A stretch of 64,000 nt of DNA, taken from the NCBI GenBank assembly GCA_036169595.1, contig CM069766.1:805001-869000 (forward strand), read 5' to 3'. Position 1 is the stretch's first letter; each line of letters starts with the position of its first letter. Positions 1,283 through 49,466 of the stretch are shown here, in pieces. The notes beneath the pieces were generated by a model. It saw only the letters and a list, made by a program, of their open reading frames with translations. It was not told the DNA's origin and made no database searches. The DNA is from Dictyostelium firmibasis (lineage: Eukaryota > Evosea > Eumycetozoa > Dictyosteliales > Dictyosteliaceae). A program made the translations under genes and the position numbers.

Positions 1283-4217
<2,935 letters not shown>

Positions 4218-19810: not shown

Positions 19811-20040
19811 TCAACAGTTGAATAATGGTCTAGTGAAAATGCAAACATATTTTGAGCTGTTGTTTGAATTTTTATTTAAATCACATTTCAAAACTTCAAA
19901 TTTGTCTATATTTGAAATATTAACATTTTTTGAAGTTGGCATTTTGTTTAAGGAAATGATTGATTCTAATAATTTAAATTTGATGTTAATAAATCTTTAA
20001 AAATTTTAAATTTTTTTTTTTTTTACTTACTTAATAACAT
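19811..20040 (-). CDS. Tiny two-exon gene, 54 residues (small-exon family, member 1)
   Basis: Minus strand. Exon 1 is only 10 nt (20040-20031, ATGTTATTAA). A 65-nt intron (GTAAGT at 20030, TAG at 19968-19966) leads to exon 2 at 19965-19811, ending in TGA. The join gives a 54-residue protein starting MLLKSIISLNKMPTSKN and ending CIFTRPLFNC. Exon 2 aligns with that of the gene at 21452-21717 right after the acceptor (AATCAATCATTTCCTTAAA against AATCAATTATCTCTTTAAA), and both end in a x-F-T-R-P motif. Its composition (Ser/Asn/Lys, with Cys) is unlike the flanking A/T. Dictyostelium has several families of very small genes of this build; I cannot name this one. No function is proposed. Confidence 0.6.
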
Positions 20041-20560
20041 TTTATTTGTTTTTTTTTCTTTGGTTCTATTATTAATGATTGATTTAGTTATTTTTAAAGA
20101 TTGATTTAGTTTTTTTTTTTTTTTTTTTATAGTTGGTTTTTTTTTTTTTTTTTGTTTTTTTTTTTTCAAGTTTCAAATAATTTCCATATTCTACCTATAA
20201 AATTTTTTTCTTAAATTCGATTGATAGTGTATGGTTTGATGTGGTATATTGAAAATTATATGGAGTTTAATTAATAATTTTGATATTTATTTTTGAAAAT
20301 TACCATACAAGTATATTAGTATTGTATTTTTTTGTATACACATATAACCAAGTATTGTTTTTTTTAAATATTTTTTACATACACCACACAAGTATTATTG
20401 ATATTATTTTTTTTTTATTTTACATTTGTTACTATTATTTTTTTTTAAAATTTATACCAAGGATTAAATTAAAACTTAATCTAGATTTAAATAGTTTGAA
20501 TTTACTATTTTTTAACTTGTACTTTTAAGTAAAATTTAAAAAGTCATTGTCAAAAACATA

Positions 20561-20609
<49 letters not shown>

Positions 20610-21451
20610 TGTAACAAATATTAAAAAAAATGAATTAGGAGGGAGTTGTTTTTTTTTTTAATTAAAATATGATATTAAAAATATATTAAATAACTTTTTT
20701 TTTTATTCAAAGAAAATTCCAAAGTTAATAACTATTGATATAAAAAAAAAGAATAAATTTTTGAAAAAAGAAAAAATTTAATTAATTTTAATTTAAATTA
20801 TATAACAACAACAAATCATTTTTTTTTTTTTAAAAAAAGAAAGAATGATTTTTTTTTCAAAAAGAATATGTTCATAGAGTTTGAAAAAATCATAAAAAAA
20901 CAAAAAAAACAATACTATATTTGGTTTTTGATTTTAAAAAAAACTAATAATTATTCAAAGAAATAGATTTTACCCAAGGTAATGATTCAGTTGGTGACAG
21001 AAAAACAATGGGTTACTTGTATAGCAACATTTTATAAATTATTTAAATATTAATATTTTTCTTAAATAAGTTAAATGGTGTATTATTGTATTTACTTGTT
21101 GTATAAATGTTTAACTATACTATTTTGGTGTTTGATTTATTTTTTTAAAATAATCAGAGGGGTTGATACCACACTAAACCCAATTAAGAAAAATACTAAT
21201 TTTTTTTTTTTTTCTAAAAGTAAAAAACCACTCAAATAATAATAATTTCACCAAAAAGATATTAAAAAAAAAAAAAAAAAAAAAAAAGAATTAAAATAAT
21301 AAAATAATTTAAAAAAAAATATAAATAGGATTAATTTTTTTTTATTTATTAAAAAAAAATAAAATAAAAACTATCATCGCAAATTATAAAATCTTTTTAT
21401 TTATTAATTTATTTATTTATTTATTTATTAAAACTAATTAAATCTTTTAAA
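20041..21451. other. A/T region between two tiny paralogous genes
   Basis: Divergent spacer of 1.4 kb, presumably containing the promoters of the tiny genes on either side. Mixed-composition patches lie at 20270-20400 (including attaccatacaagtat and caccacacaagtatt, which share an acaagtatt core) and at 20960-21040. The open frame at 20280-20528 is Phe/Tyr-rich and not credible. Confidence 0.55.
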
Positions 21452-21717
21452 ATGTTATTCAGTATGTATTATAATATGATAATGTTAAATTTTATTTATA
21501 AATAATTAAATGATTATTTTTTTGAAAATTCTAATTTTTAATTATTTTTTATTAATATTAAAATTTAGAATCAATTATCTCTTTAAAAAATAAAACCTCT
21601 TCAAACAATAATTTAATCAATGGAAATGAATCCTCAAACACTATAACCTCAATTAACCAAACATGTGATAAAAACTTCTTTAAGGGATTTTTTACACGTC
21701 CATCTTATGAAATATAA
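21452..21717 (+). CDS. Tiny two-exon gene, 52 residues (small-exon family, member 2)
   Basis: Exon 1 is 10 nt (21452-21461, ATGTTATTCA). The intron runs 21462-21568 (GTATGT..TTTAG). Exon 2 at 21569-21717 ends in TAA. The spliced product is 52 residues, starting MLFKSIISLKNKTSSNN and ending FFKGFFTRPSYEI. The first ten residues match the minus-strand gene at 19811-20040 at eight positions, and the C-terminal FTRP motif is shared. Phase closes only if the 10-nt exon is used, which supports the model. A mixed-composition patch in exon 2 (acatgtgataaaaacttc onward) contrasts with the A/T on both sides. It is too short to be noticed as an open frame without splicing. Confidence 0.65.
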
Positions 21718-22220
21718 ATATTTATACTACAAAATTTAAAAAAACTTATTTATTTATATTATCGATTACTATTTTTTTATTATTTTTTTTTTTAAAAAAA
21801 AAAAAATACAAAGAAATTGAACAAAAAACCAATTAAAATTCCTATTTATTTTAAATAAAAAAAAACTTAATTTAAACCATACTTTTTTATTTTTTTTATT
21901 TTTTTATTTCATTCTAATAAAATTTGTGACAAAAAAACATTACCAAAACACCAAATAACACCCCTATTTAGGAACTGGATTTGTAAGATCTTTTTTTCAC
22001 AGCACAAATTTTTTTTTTTTTAAAAAAAAATTCAAAAATATTCAAAAAAATTCAAAAAAATTGAAAAAAAAAAAAATTGTATTTTTTTTCATTTTCGCTT
22101 TTCTCTATCTATTTCTCTAAATTTGTACATATATTATTTTTTAATTTGGTTAGACAAGAATATACAGGAATTAAAATAAAATAAAATAAAATAAAATATA
22201 ATAAAATAATAAAAAAAAAG
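21718..22220. other. Intergenic A/T region upstream of prefoldin 3
   Basis: 3' flank of the tiny gene and promoter of the prefoldin gene. Shortly before the ATG are (AATAA)n-type runs and a TTTCTCTATCTATTTCTC pyrimidine tract near 22098, a possible transcription start environment. No gene is seen. Confidence 0.6.
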
Positions 22221-23083
22221 ATGACAACTACCAACACAAATGAAGATCCATATAAAATATTATTTGAACAAGATATAAAGACAGCAACCAATATTCCAAT
22301 GGTTACTTTCATTTCAAATGTAGAGGATTTCGTTAAAGATAAAGATATTGAAAACGTTTTCAAACAATTACAAGAAGCATATCAAAAATATAAATTTTTT
22401 GAATCAAAACTTTCAAATAATATTTCAATGTTAACTCAAAGATCAAAACAATTACAAGAATCTTTAGATATTGTTAACCATGTTGAAAATAAATCTGTAT
22501 AGTATTCGTTATTTATACCATTAAATTCTTAAACACCACCAATACCAATCTTAACAACACCATCACCATCACCATCACCATCACCATCACCATCACCATC
22601 ACCATCACCATCACCATCACCATCACCATCACCATCACCATCACCATCACCATCACCATCACCATCACCATCAATATTATACATCAATAACATTTGTATG
22701 ATTTTATAAAATTAGCATACTTACAGAATTTTATGATATCACTATGTTTTTTTTTTTTTCAGAGTGAATCATTTTCAGTACAATACGAACTTTCAGAAGG
22801 TGTTTACTCATCAGCAGAAGTAAATGAACCAAAATCAATTTATTTATGGTTAGGTGCAAATGTAATGTTGGAATACTCCTTTGAGGAAGCAAGAGAGGTA
22901 TTAAGAAAGAATAAAGATTCTGTTGATCTTCAACTTAGAGAGAGCATTCAAGATTTAGGTTTTGTAAAGGATCAAATCACTACAACTGATGTTAACGTTT
23001 CACGTGTTTACAATTATGATGTCATTCAAAAAAGAAAATTAAAACAATCAGGTAAAAGTACTGAAGAAGAAGAAGAAAAATAA
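22221..23083 (+). CDS. pfdn3: Prefoldin subunit 3 (VBP1 homologue)
   Basis: Exons 22221-22496 and 22763-23083 give 198 residues, phase 0 at the junction (donor GTATAG, acceptor TTTTCAG). The protein is an alpha-class prefoldin: two coiled-coil arms (about 30-90 and 135-180) around a beta hairpin. The central [16 protein letters not shown] and the later [17 protein letters not shown] match human VBP1 ([33 protein letters not shown]). Prefoldin is the cytosolic hexamer that passes nascent actin and tubulin to the CCT chaperonin. The C-terminus is a short Glu run. The intron carries a (CACCAT)n repeat of about 120 nt. Confidence 0.95.
22555..22673 (+). repeat. (CACCAT)n hexanucleotide repeat
   Basis: About twenty near-perfect CACCAT units inside the prefoldin 3 intron. 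It is by far the most GC-rich tract of this neighbourhood. Confidence 0.97.
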
Positions 23084-23681
23084 ATAAAAAAAAAAAAAAT
23101 TGAATAAATAAAAATTAAAATTAAAATCAGTCAAAAAAAAAAAAAAAGAAAAGAAAAAAAAAGAAAAGAAAAAAAAAAGAAAAGAAAAAAAAATATAGGT
23201 AATTTTAGGGTTTTATATTTATTTAAATAGATTATTGTGTAATATGTATTGATGTTTCGTTTTTTATTTAAAAAGAACGAATGATGGCATTATTTTTTTT
23301 TTTTTTACAAAAAAAAATTGGGAAAAGGAAAGGCAGGGTTTATTTGAAAAAAAAAAGAGAAAATGGTAATTGATTTTTTTGTTATGTTTTGTTTTTTTTT
23401 TGTTTTTTTTGTTATGTTTTGTTTTTTTTTTTTGTTTTTTGTTTTGTTTTTTTTTTTTTTTGGTTGTATCGGTAAAACCTAAAAAAAATTAATTTTTTTT
23501 TGATTGAGTTTTCATTATTATTTATTTTTATTATAATCTTTTCTCTGTTATTTTTTAGTTTAGGTAAATTTTTTTTTTTTTAAAAATAATTTTATTTGAT
23601 TAATTCAATCTTTTTTTGAAAAGAGGAAAACAAAATTGGAGGAAGCTATTTACAATAATAAAAAAGATTGAATTATCTCTT

Positions 23682-23714
<33 letters not shown>

Positions 23715-23718
23715 TTTT
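23084..23718. other. Intergenic region with oligo-A/G and T/G repeats
   Basis: Convergent spacer between prefoldin 3 and the minus-strand tiny gene. It holds a purine array of AAAAGAAAAAAA units (about 23125-23192) and a TTTTGTTATGTTTTG array (about 23383-23460). No gene is seen. Confidence 0.7.
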
Positions 23719-24006
23719 CTAACCCAATCTTTTAAAAATTGGCATTTTCCTCTCAATTTCATTGTGAGGAATAATAGCGGTACATATTGATTTTTCAAAT
23801 ATATTTATTATAAACGGTGATTGCTGTATTATAATGTTATTATAATTATTATTATTGGTACTATTTATTTTATTTATATTCATCGATGAGTTTGAAAATT
23901 TAGTTAATGATTCTATAATTTTAAAAAAAAATTTCTTATATCAGTAAATTTTTTTTTTCTTTCTTATGATTTATTATAAAAAAAAATATTTACCTAAAAT
24001 CGTCAT
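23719..24006 (-). CDS. Tiny two-exon gene, 68 residues (short first exon)
   Basis: Minus strand. Exon 1 is 13 nt (24006-23994, ATGACGATTTTAG). The intron is 23993-23913 (GTAAAT..ATAG). Exon 2 at 23912-23719 ends in TAG. The product is 68 residues, starting MTILESLTKFSNSSMNIN, Asn/Ile-rich in the middle, with an ending that carries ERKMPIFKRLG. The MTIL-x-S-(L/I)-T/S-x-F/I-S-N opening recalls Dictyostelium HssA-type small proteins, though the Gly/Cys-rich tail of that family is missing. It has the same architecture as the genes at 19811-20040 and 21452-21717 (very short first exon, single A/T intron), but its sequence is not clearly homologous beyond the first residues. No function is proposed. 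Confidence 0.55.
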
Positions 24007-47569: not shown

Positions 47570-49466
47570 TTAGCTTGATTGATCATCATAATCATCATCA
47601 CTATAAATATTTAGTGATTTTGTTTTTTTAGTTTTTCTATTATCGCTACCATTTTCATCATTATTGGAATTTTCGTTATTATTATCACCATTTATATTAT
47701 TATCTTGATTATTATTGTTGTTGTTTTTAGGAGATGGAGAAGGAGAAGGACTTCTATCCCTCTTTTCATTACTTCTACTTCTAGAGACAGATCTATCTCT
47801 ATTTTTACTTCTATCTCTATTTTTACTTCTATCTCTACTTCTACTACGACTATCACTGGTTCTATTACTTCTTGATCTACTTCTACTATTTTTATTTTGT
47901 TTTCTATCATTGCTTTTACTTCTATTTCTACTTCTACTTCTTGATCTACTTTTACTCTTATCGCGATATTCGGGAGTTCTTGATCTACTTCTATCTCTTC
48001 TCAAGGAAGAGGAAGAGGAAGAGGAAGTATAATGATCTCTGCTTGAGCGATAGTCTCTATCACGACTTGTTAAACCACTACTACTATAATGATCTCTACT
48101 GTCTCTACTACTTCTGTGGTCTCTGTCTCTATCTCTGCTGCTATAATAATCTCTGCTACTATCACGATAGTCTCTACTGTCGTGGTAATCTCTACTACTT
48201 CTATAGTCTCTACTATCTCTATAGTCTCTATCATAATAATCTCTGTCATCACGATAATCTCTACTATCGTAGTAATCACGACTTTTATGGTCTCTATCTC
48301 TGTCCCTTTCTCTATCTCTGTCTCTATCTCTATCCCTTTCTCTGTCTCTGTCTCTGTCTCTATCTCTGTCTCTGTCTCTGTCTCTATCTCTATCTCTTTC
48401 CTTTTCTCTATCCCTGTAGTCTCTTTCCCTCTCTCTATCCTTGTCTCTTTCTCTTTCTCTGTCCCTTTCTCTATCCCTTTCTCTTTCTTTTTCTTTTTCT
48501 TTATTTTCGGTTCTATTCTTTCTTGAACCTTTTAAATCTAAACTTGGATCTATATTAATCTCTGTTTTTGCTGTTATTACACCTGTTGTCATGGTTGTTG
48601 ATGGTTGTGATGGTATTTGTACATTGTTAGTTTGTTGATTTTTTGCTATTATTTGCGGTGGATATGGTGGTGGATGATCTGTAAATCTCTTTTGTGGTTG
48701 TTGTTGTTGTTGTTGTTGTTGTAAACCATAATTAATTGGTTGTTGTAGTTGTTGCTGTGGAGGAGGTTGTTGATAGGTTGGATTTCTAATATTAAAGTTA
48801 TTGGCTGTTGAATTCGATTGTTCAATCTTCTGTTTGGTTTTATCGATAGCTTGTTTAATTCTATTCTCTTCTTCTTTCGCTTTTTGTGATGCAAATTGAG
48901 CATCCTTTAAAAAATCTTCTGGTATGCCACCAACTGAATTTTGTGCATTTACCAATAGTTTCCATAATTTATCCATAAAGCTTGCTGCATCTTTGGTTAA
49001 AAATCCTGTAATATTAATTTGAATTGTTTTTGGATCTGGGTTATTGGTTTCCTTTAAGAAAGATAATAATAATAATAAATGGTATTTAATTGTTTATAGA
49101 CTATGTTAAAAAAATGAAATAAAAAATTAAAAATAAAAAGAAATGAGAATAAATTATTCTTGTTTATTTTTTTTCATTTTCTCTTTTATATTTGTTTTAT
49201 AAAAAAAATGTGGAAGACTTACACTTAATAGACCATATATGAAATCACAAACTATTTCATCTTCAAACTTTAGTATATCCAAAACTTGACTATTTATCCA
49301 TTTTTTGAATGATGGCAAATGTACTTTTGTCATATCAATTTTGGTATTGAAATGAGCTGGAAATTTCATAGATTTTAAAATCTTTTTTTGTTTATCACCA
49401 AATCTATCATCTTGTTCGGCTGAGGTACCCTATAAAATTGATAGTAATTAATTGGTCAATACTATT

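Follow-up and report, generated by a model that had tools for sequence, protein, structure and literature searches.

Do the very short spliced reading frames found at one locus of Dictyostelium firmibasis belong to real genes, and, if so, to genes of what kind? The stretch that we analysed, hereafter the window, comprises 64,000 nucleotides (nt) of contig CM069766.1 in assembly GCA_036169595.1 (positions 805,001 to 869,000 of the forward strand) and has a G+C content of 24%. An earlier note on this DNA had proposed three tiny genes here, called models 1 to 3 below, each with a minute first coding exon and a single short intron. Our analysis indicates that these are very probably genuine protein-coding genes in the miniature style of dictyostelids, models 1 and 2 forming a pair with a conserved FTRP end and model 3 standing alone, and this judgement takes in the roles that we suggest for them. 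The exons are as follows, in positions of the window.

20031 to 20040, minus strand: model 1, first exon of 10 nt, ATGTTATTAA, donor GTAAGT; this grammar recurs elsewhere in the genome.
19811 to 19965, minus strand: model 1, second exon and stop; 54-residue protein MLLKSIISL...IFTRPLFNC.
21452 to 21461, plus strand: model 2, first exon of 10 nt, ATGTTATTCA, donor GTATGT.
21569 to 21717, plus strand: model 2, second exon and stop; 52-residue protein MLFKSIISL...FFTRPSYEI.
23994 to 24006, minus strand: model 3, first exon of 13 nt, ATGACGATTTTAG, donor GTAAAT.
23719 to 23912, minus strand: model 3, second exon and stop; 68-residue protein beginning MTILESLTKF.

The three spliced models were reproduced exactly at these positions, closing in phase into 54, 52 and 68 residues, and a computed search for spliced frames gave one solution of at least 45 residues for each. 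The claim of small genes with first coding exons of 10–13 nt stands. The introns measure 65, 107 and 81 nt in models 1, 2 and 3, respectively, and each is followed, after a TAG acceptor, by AATC as the first letters of the second exon, so that the codon split by the intron encodes Lys or Glu and is followed by Ser and then Ile or Leu. Models 1 and 2 form a divergent (head-to-head) pair 1.4 kb apart. The genes had also been described as not seen as open frames, which is true of their starts but not of the second exons of models 1 and 3; these lie inside open frames of 61 and 73 residues, and the hidden part is the start. When a strict donor, a TAG or CAG acceptor, an intron of 50–120 nt, a first exon of 10 or 13 nt and a protein of 50–120 residues were demanded, four ATG starts qualified in the 64 kb of the window, compared with one in total over 12 first-order Markov simulations (mean 0.08). 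Three of the four were models 1 to 3; the fourth, at 48965 on the minus strand, begins METIELNKL and is without the N-terminal motif. Adding that motif as a filter, which was picked after the models had been seen, left three observed starts against none in the 12 simulations.

The grammar of models 1 and 2 was then sought across the genome, 31,455,843 bases in 12 contigs, a contig number also stated in the D. firmibasis genome paper (PMC11193728). The window lies in the contig here called C2. The pattern consisted of the 10-nt exon, the donor, an intron of bounded length, the TAG acceptor and the next codons, and the reversed pattern served as control. Three intron ranges gave matches at 5, 7 and 1 places with none in any reversed control, and a looser version with fewer letters of the second exon gave 24 places, again with none in its control. 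The union of these searches comprises 27 distinct places, models 1 and 2 included. The earlier note had asked for just this check, whether the opening and its 10-nt exon recur together at other places, and in this genome it succeeds. The first exon and donor alone matched 51 places versus 15 in the control, which means that part of the 51 is chance. We define the FTRP family by a coding first exon of 10 nt, an intron in phase 1, a start that is typically MLFKS[LI]IS, and [FY][TS]RP near the end; it has roughly 25 very small genes, dispersed in the genome.

We read 23 members, of which 14 lie at 3182–3213 kb of contig C4, six elsewhere on C4 and one at 486 kb of C2, the other two being models 1 and 2. 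Seventeen models with a ten-nt exon were read with no demand on the C-terminus (14 and three further ones), and all 17 had the motif [FY][TS]RP near the end; five of the remaining members had been accepted through an [ST]RP filter, and one gene, with a 7-nt exon, was found by its C-terminal match. This last member (L054; C4 from 3188548, plus strand; exon ATGTATA, donor GTAAGT) encodes a 52-residue protein, MYKLITSI...FFTRPNFVNF, and belongs to a divergent pair 0.88 kb apart. Starts among the members include the variants MLSKS, MIFKF, MIFNS and MLFKY, and between start and conserved end lies a variable, Ser/Asn-rich middle that changes fast. In a 17-gene alignment R and P were present in 17 of 17 and T in 15 of 17 genes, five of the 17 having been accepted with the [ST]RP filter. 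A second alignment, of 13 of the 21 other members, shows an invariant FTRP, but it omits among others the ends FSRP, YSRP and YTRP and thus overstates the conservation of F and T, so that the 17-gene count is the fairer one. The C-terminal pattern [FY][ST]RPNF matched 22 genome places versus 3 in the control, and 17 of the 22 lie inside family genes that we read. Within the C4 cluster, five adjoining pairs are divergent, with spacings of 0.75–1.5 kb. Further 10-nt exon starts occur at C2 3250–3254 kb (four), C2 4279–4282 kb (four) and C4 1381–1394 kb (eight); of the last eight, three were read, with ends of the form [IL]FTRPxMYxF. The family seems to be undescribed within the literature that we searched; a search for its peptide strings returned 0 hits, which is weak evidence, since papers seldom spell out such strings in their text and the supplements lay outside the search.

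How the models of the window relate to this family was examined with a profile built from 17 family genes, models 1 and 2 excluded, and run on 18 entries (15 spliced candidates of the window, the models among them, and the three models re-entered). Model 2 ranked first, at 31.4 bits (E 2e-10), with model 1 second (E 4e-5; 14.5 bits, with a large composition bias of 13.5 bits); the next entry followed at E 0.16, and model 3 stood at E 0.74. Models 1 and 2 carry the 10-nt first exon, the phase-1 intron, the start and the [FY][TS]RP end, a combination that model 3 does not have. Models 1 and 2 are related, as had been proposed. The idea of one local cluster of three did not hold up: models 1 and 2 sit in a dispersed family, and model 3 falls in another group. 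Protein database searches covered models 1, 2 and 3. For model 2 the sole protein returned was DDB_G0286475 of D. discoideum (51 residues; 83% identity, E 3.2e-17), on sequence likeness its likely orthologue; no D. firmibasis protein was returned in that search, and the deposited annotation therefore probably lacks this gene. Model 3 is 100% identical to D. firmibasis RB653_000296 and is thus already annotated; it shares 76% identity with D. discoideum DDB_G0286439, a likely orthologue judging by the alignment. Both D. discoideum relatives align over the whole length of the models or nearly so, and length changes between the species stay in frame. Each of the two relatives lies on a D. discoideum contig of 5,450,249 bases, and this shared length is in line with a conserved neighbourhood. 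We know of no function for the annotated hypothetical proteins DDB_G0286475 and DDB_G0286439, and the literature search found neither of them named.

Beyond a broadly similar style of start, model 3 is not related to models 1 and 2, and it belongs neither to the FTRP family nor to the hssA family of Pfam (PF05710). It shares a 13-nt exon and an M[TS]hh-x-S start with other small genes of the genome. Model 3 also shows the mark of this group, x-S-[IL] spanning the junction after the 13-nt exon. The 13-nt pattern was found at 22 places versus 2 in the control, and 21 of the 22 have a spliced frame of at least 45 residues with [AED]-S-[IL], the other (L066) having none; starts in this group include MTILASISSIG, MSLFASISSIS and MTLFESLKSIS. 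Many of the 22 are PF05710 genes. Conversely, of 35 PF05710 loci found, 20 were examined and 19 showed a 13-nt first exon with the same start style (L016 did not); the 19 models encode proteins of 76–93 residues. For model 3, our genome search gave no paralogue, the next match being at E 0.58, and the single sub-threshold Pfam match was to PF00763 (E 0.15; 12.8 bits against a cut-off of 32.8).

The tiny first exon has already been published as a hallmark of the genes for small proteins in Dictyostelium (PMC2257962, PMC6198379). In D. discoideum, a first exon of 13 coding nt is present in 89 of 96 sigN-like genes, the proteins are shorter than 120 residues, and the 13 closest sigN genes lie in clusters and divergent pairs with GBF-like promoter sites, two promoters tested having prestalk activity (PMC2257962). 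The hssA genes likewise have a 13-bp first exon, and nine of them are highly expressed in cup cells (PMC6198379). Our models resemble the hssA/2C/7E/sigN genes in having two exons, a short intron, a start of the form M[TS]hh-x-S or -A, clusters, divergent pairs and small proteins, and differ from them in that those genes have a Gly/Cys-rich body and a PF05710 match, whereas models 1 to 3 have no such match; models 1 and 2 differ further in the 10-nt exon and the FTRP end, although model 3 does have 13 nt. One could therefore ask whether the three are diverged, true PF05710 members that lost the Gly/Cys-rich body. The shared two-exon architecture, the phase-1 junction, the M[TS]hh-x-S[IL]-like start and the clusters with divergent pairs all fit such a descent. 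Against it, none of the three matched PF05710 at E up to 10 (the filters of the tool drop most matches above about 0.1), the first exon of models 1 and 2 has 10 nt rather than 13, and the bodies, compared by eye, look unrelated. We regard this descent as possible but on the unlikely side. The genes are a side branch of a known amoeba gene style, an addition to it rather than a new kind.

Several points weigh against reading all three models as working protein-coding genes, a case that we draw from sequence. Model 1 depends on its two ends: in an alignment of three rows it is 35% identical to model 2, and no homologue was found. It might thus be a decaying copy that no longer works as a gene, a view to which the sequence searches lend something, with no homologue in the protein database and no paralogue in the genome by tblastn, as does its weak and strongly composition-biased profile score. 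Its donor, acceptor, frame, length and both ends are nevertheless intact. By its sequence model 1 is likely to be a diverged FTRP member, and decay is unlikely. There are signs of purifying selection among close paralogues, the ratio of nonsynonymous to synonymous substitution rates (dN/dS) for three pairs being 0.12, 0.12 and 1.04, but the two low values share one gene and are not independent, and the value of 1.04 comes from about 8 changes. Structure predictions for the relative of model 2 and for model 3 were too poor to suggest a mechanism (mean predicted local distance difference test score, pLDDT, 59.2 and 54.0). No structure was seen for the former, and the latter has a low-confidence N-terminal helix at residues 3–20, with a pLDDT of 73 over the first ten residues. 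Finally, deletion of the 13 Group 1 and 2 sigN genes (PMC2257962) and single deletions of six small-protein genes (PMC8554618) gave no developmental phenotype, although antibodies against one of the sigN groups disrupted mounds (PMC2257962).

If the RNA rather than the peptide were the main product, the transcripts would be what regulates development. Conservation at the amino-acid level makes this very unlikely: dN/dS is low for two of the three pairs, the lengths differ between species in frame, and the protein ends are conserved. That frames closed by chance in A/T-rich DNA, where exon 1 and its donor find 15 matches even in the reversed control, is scarcely credible given the close D. discoideum relatives, the genome-wide family with zero in controls and the simulations, and for models 2 and 3 it is refuted.

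Taken as protein-coding genes in the miniature style, the models suggest the following scheme. The first exon carries three or four codons, a short phase-1 intron interrupts the codon before a conserved Ser, and the second exon supplies the remainder. In models 1 and 2 the protein opens with a short hydrophobic stretch, continues with a Ser/Asn-rich middle that changes fast and closes with the conserved [FY][TS]RP end. By analogy with the hssA/sigN genes, such genes may be switched on in development, and stage-specific expression is plausible. The products would be small, largely unfolded proteins whose N-terminus may touch a membrane or a partner and whose FTRP end may serve as a short binding motif. 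Redundancy among the family copies is likely and could be extensive. Secretion of the model proteins has no clear support: by hydropathy, used here without a signal-peptide predictor, unbroken hydrophobic stretches among the first 30 residues reach a length of 2–3, and the best 11-residue value is 0.58–0.85. An 88-residue protein that counters polyglutamine aggregation, presumably the one named SRCP1, invites a further comparison. It and its class (PMC8554618) are small and numerous, like the genes discussed here, and developmentally regulated, as these may be, a likeness that we draw by description only.

Upstream of models 1 and 2 there is a possible shared promoter element, weak in both places.

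20233 to 20247, minus strand: ATACCACATCAAACC, 193–207 bases upstream of the model 1 ATG.
21166 to 21180, plus strand: ATACCACACTAAACC, 272–286 bases upstream of the model 2 ATG.

The motif was picked after both copies had been seen, and 5 of 100 shuffles match as often at two mismatches or fewer; inspected by eye, it bears a partial resemblance to G-box sites, with no full match to the GBF consensus given in PMC2257962. Another word, GACATACA, occurs in 9 of 20 family upstream regions versus 1.3 expected and might mark a promoter site, with the caveat that the test covered many words and that the regions partly overlap, divergent pairs sharing their upstream DNA. Elsewhere in the window, a perfect (CACCAT) hexamer array occupies 22558–22673 (19.3 copies, 100% match), apparently within an intron of what the earlier note labelled prefoldin 3. 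An Rfam scan of the window was empty at gathering scores.

These results add a multigene family whose very small proteins can escape gene finders, as the absence of any D. firmibasis record for models 1 and 2 illustrates, and which differs from published genes in its 10-nt rather than 13-nt coding first exon and its conserved FTRP end. A more tentative idea, which we hold as rather doubtful, is that the micro-exon start (promoter, three or four codons, phase-1 intron and M(T)hhxS N-terminus) is a portable module placed on unrelated second exons, namely the Gly/Cys-rich hssA bodies, the FTRP proteins and lone genes such as model 3. Were this true, unrelated small proteins would share one start and possibly one mode of expression and targeting, which would suggest how dictyostelids generate new small developmental genes in large numbers. 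If the genes are only a side branch of hssA, they still provide a simple search rule with which to complete dictyostelid annotation.

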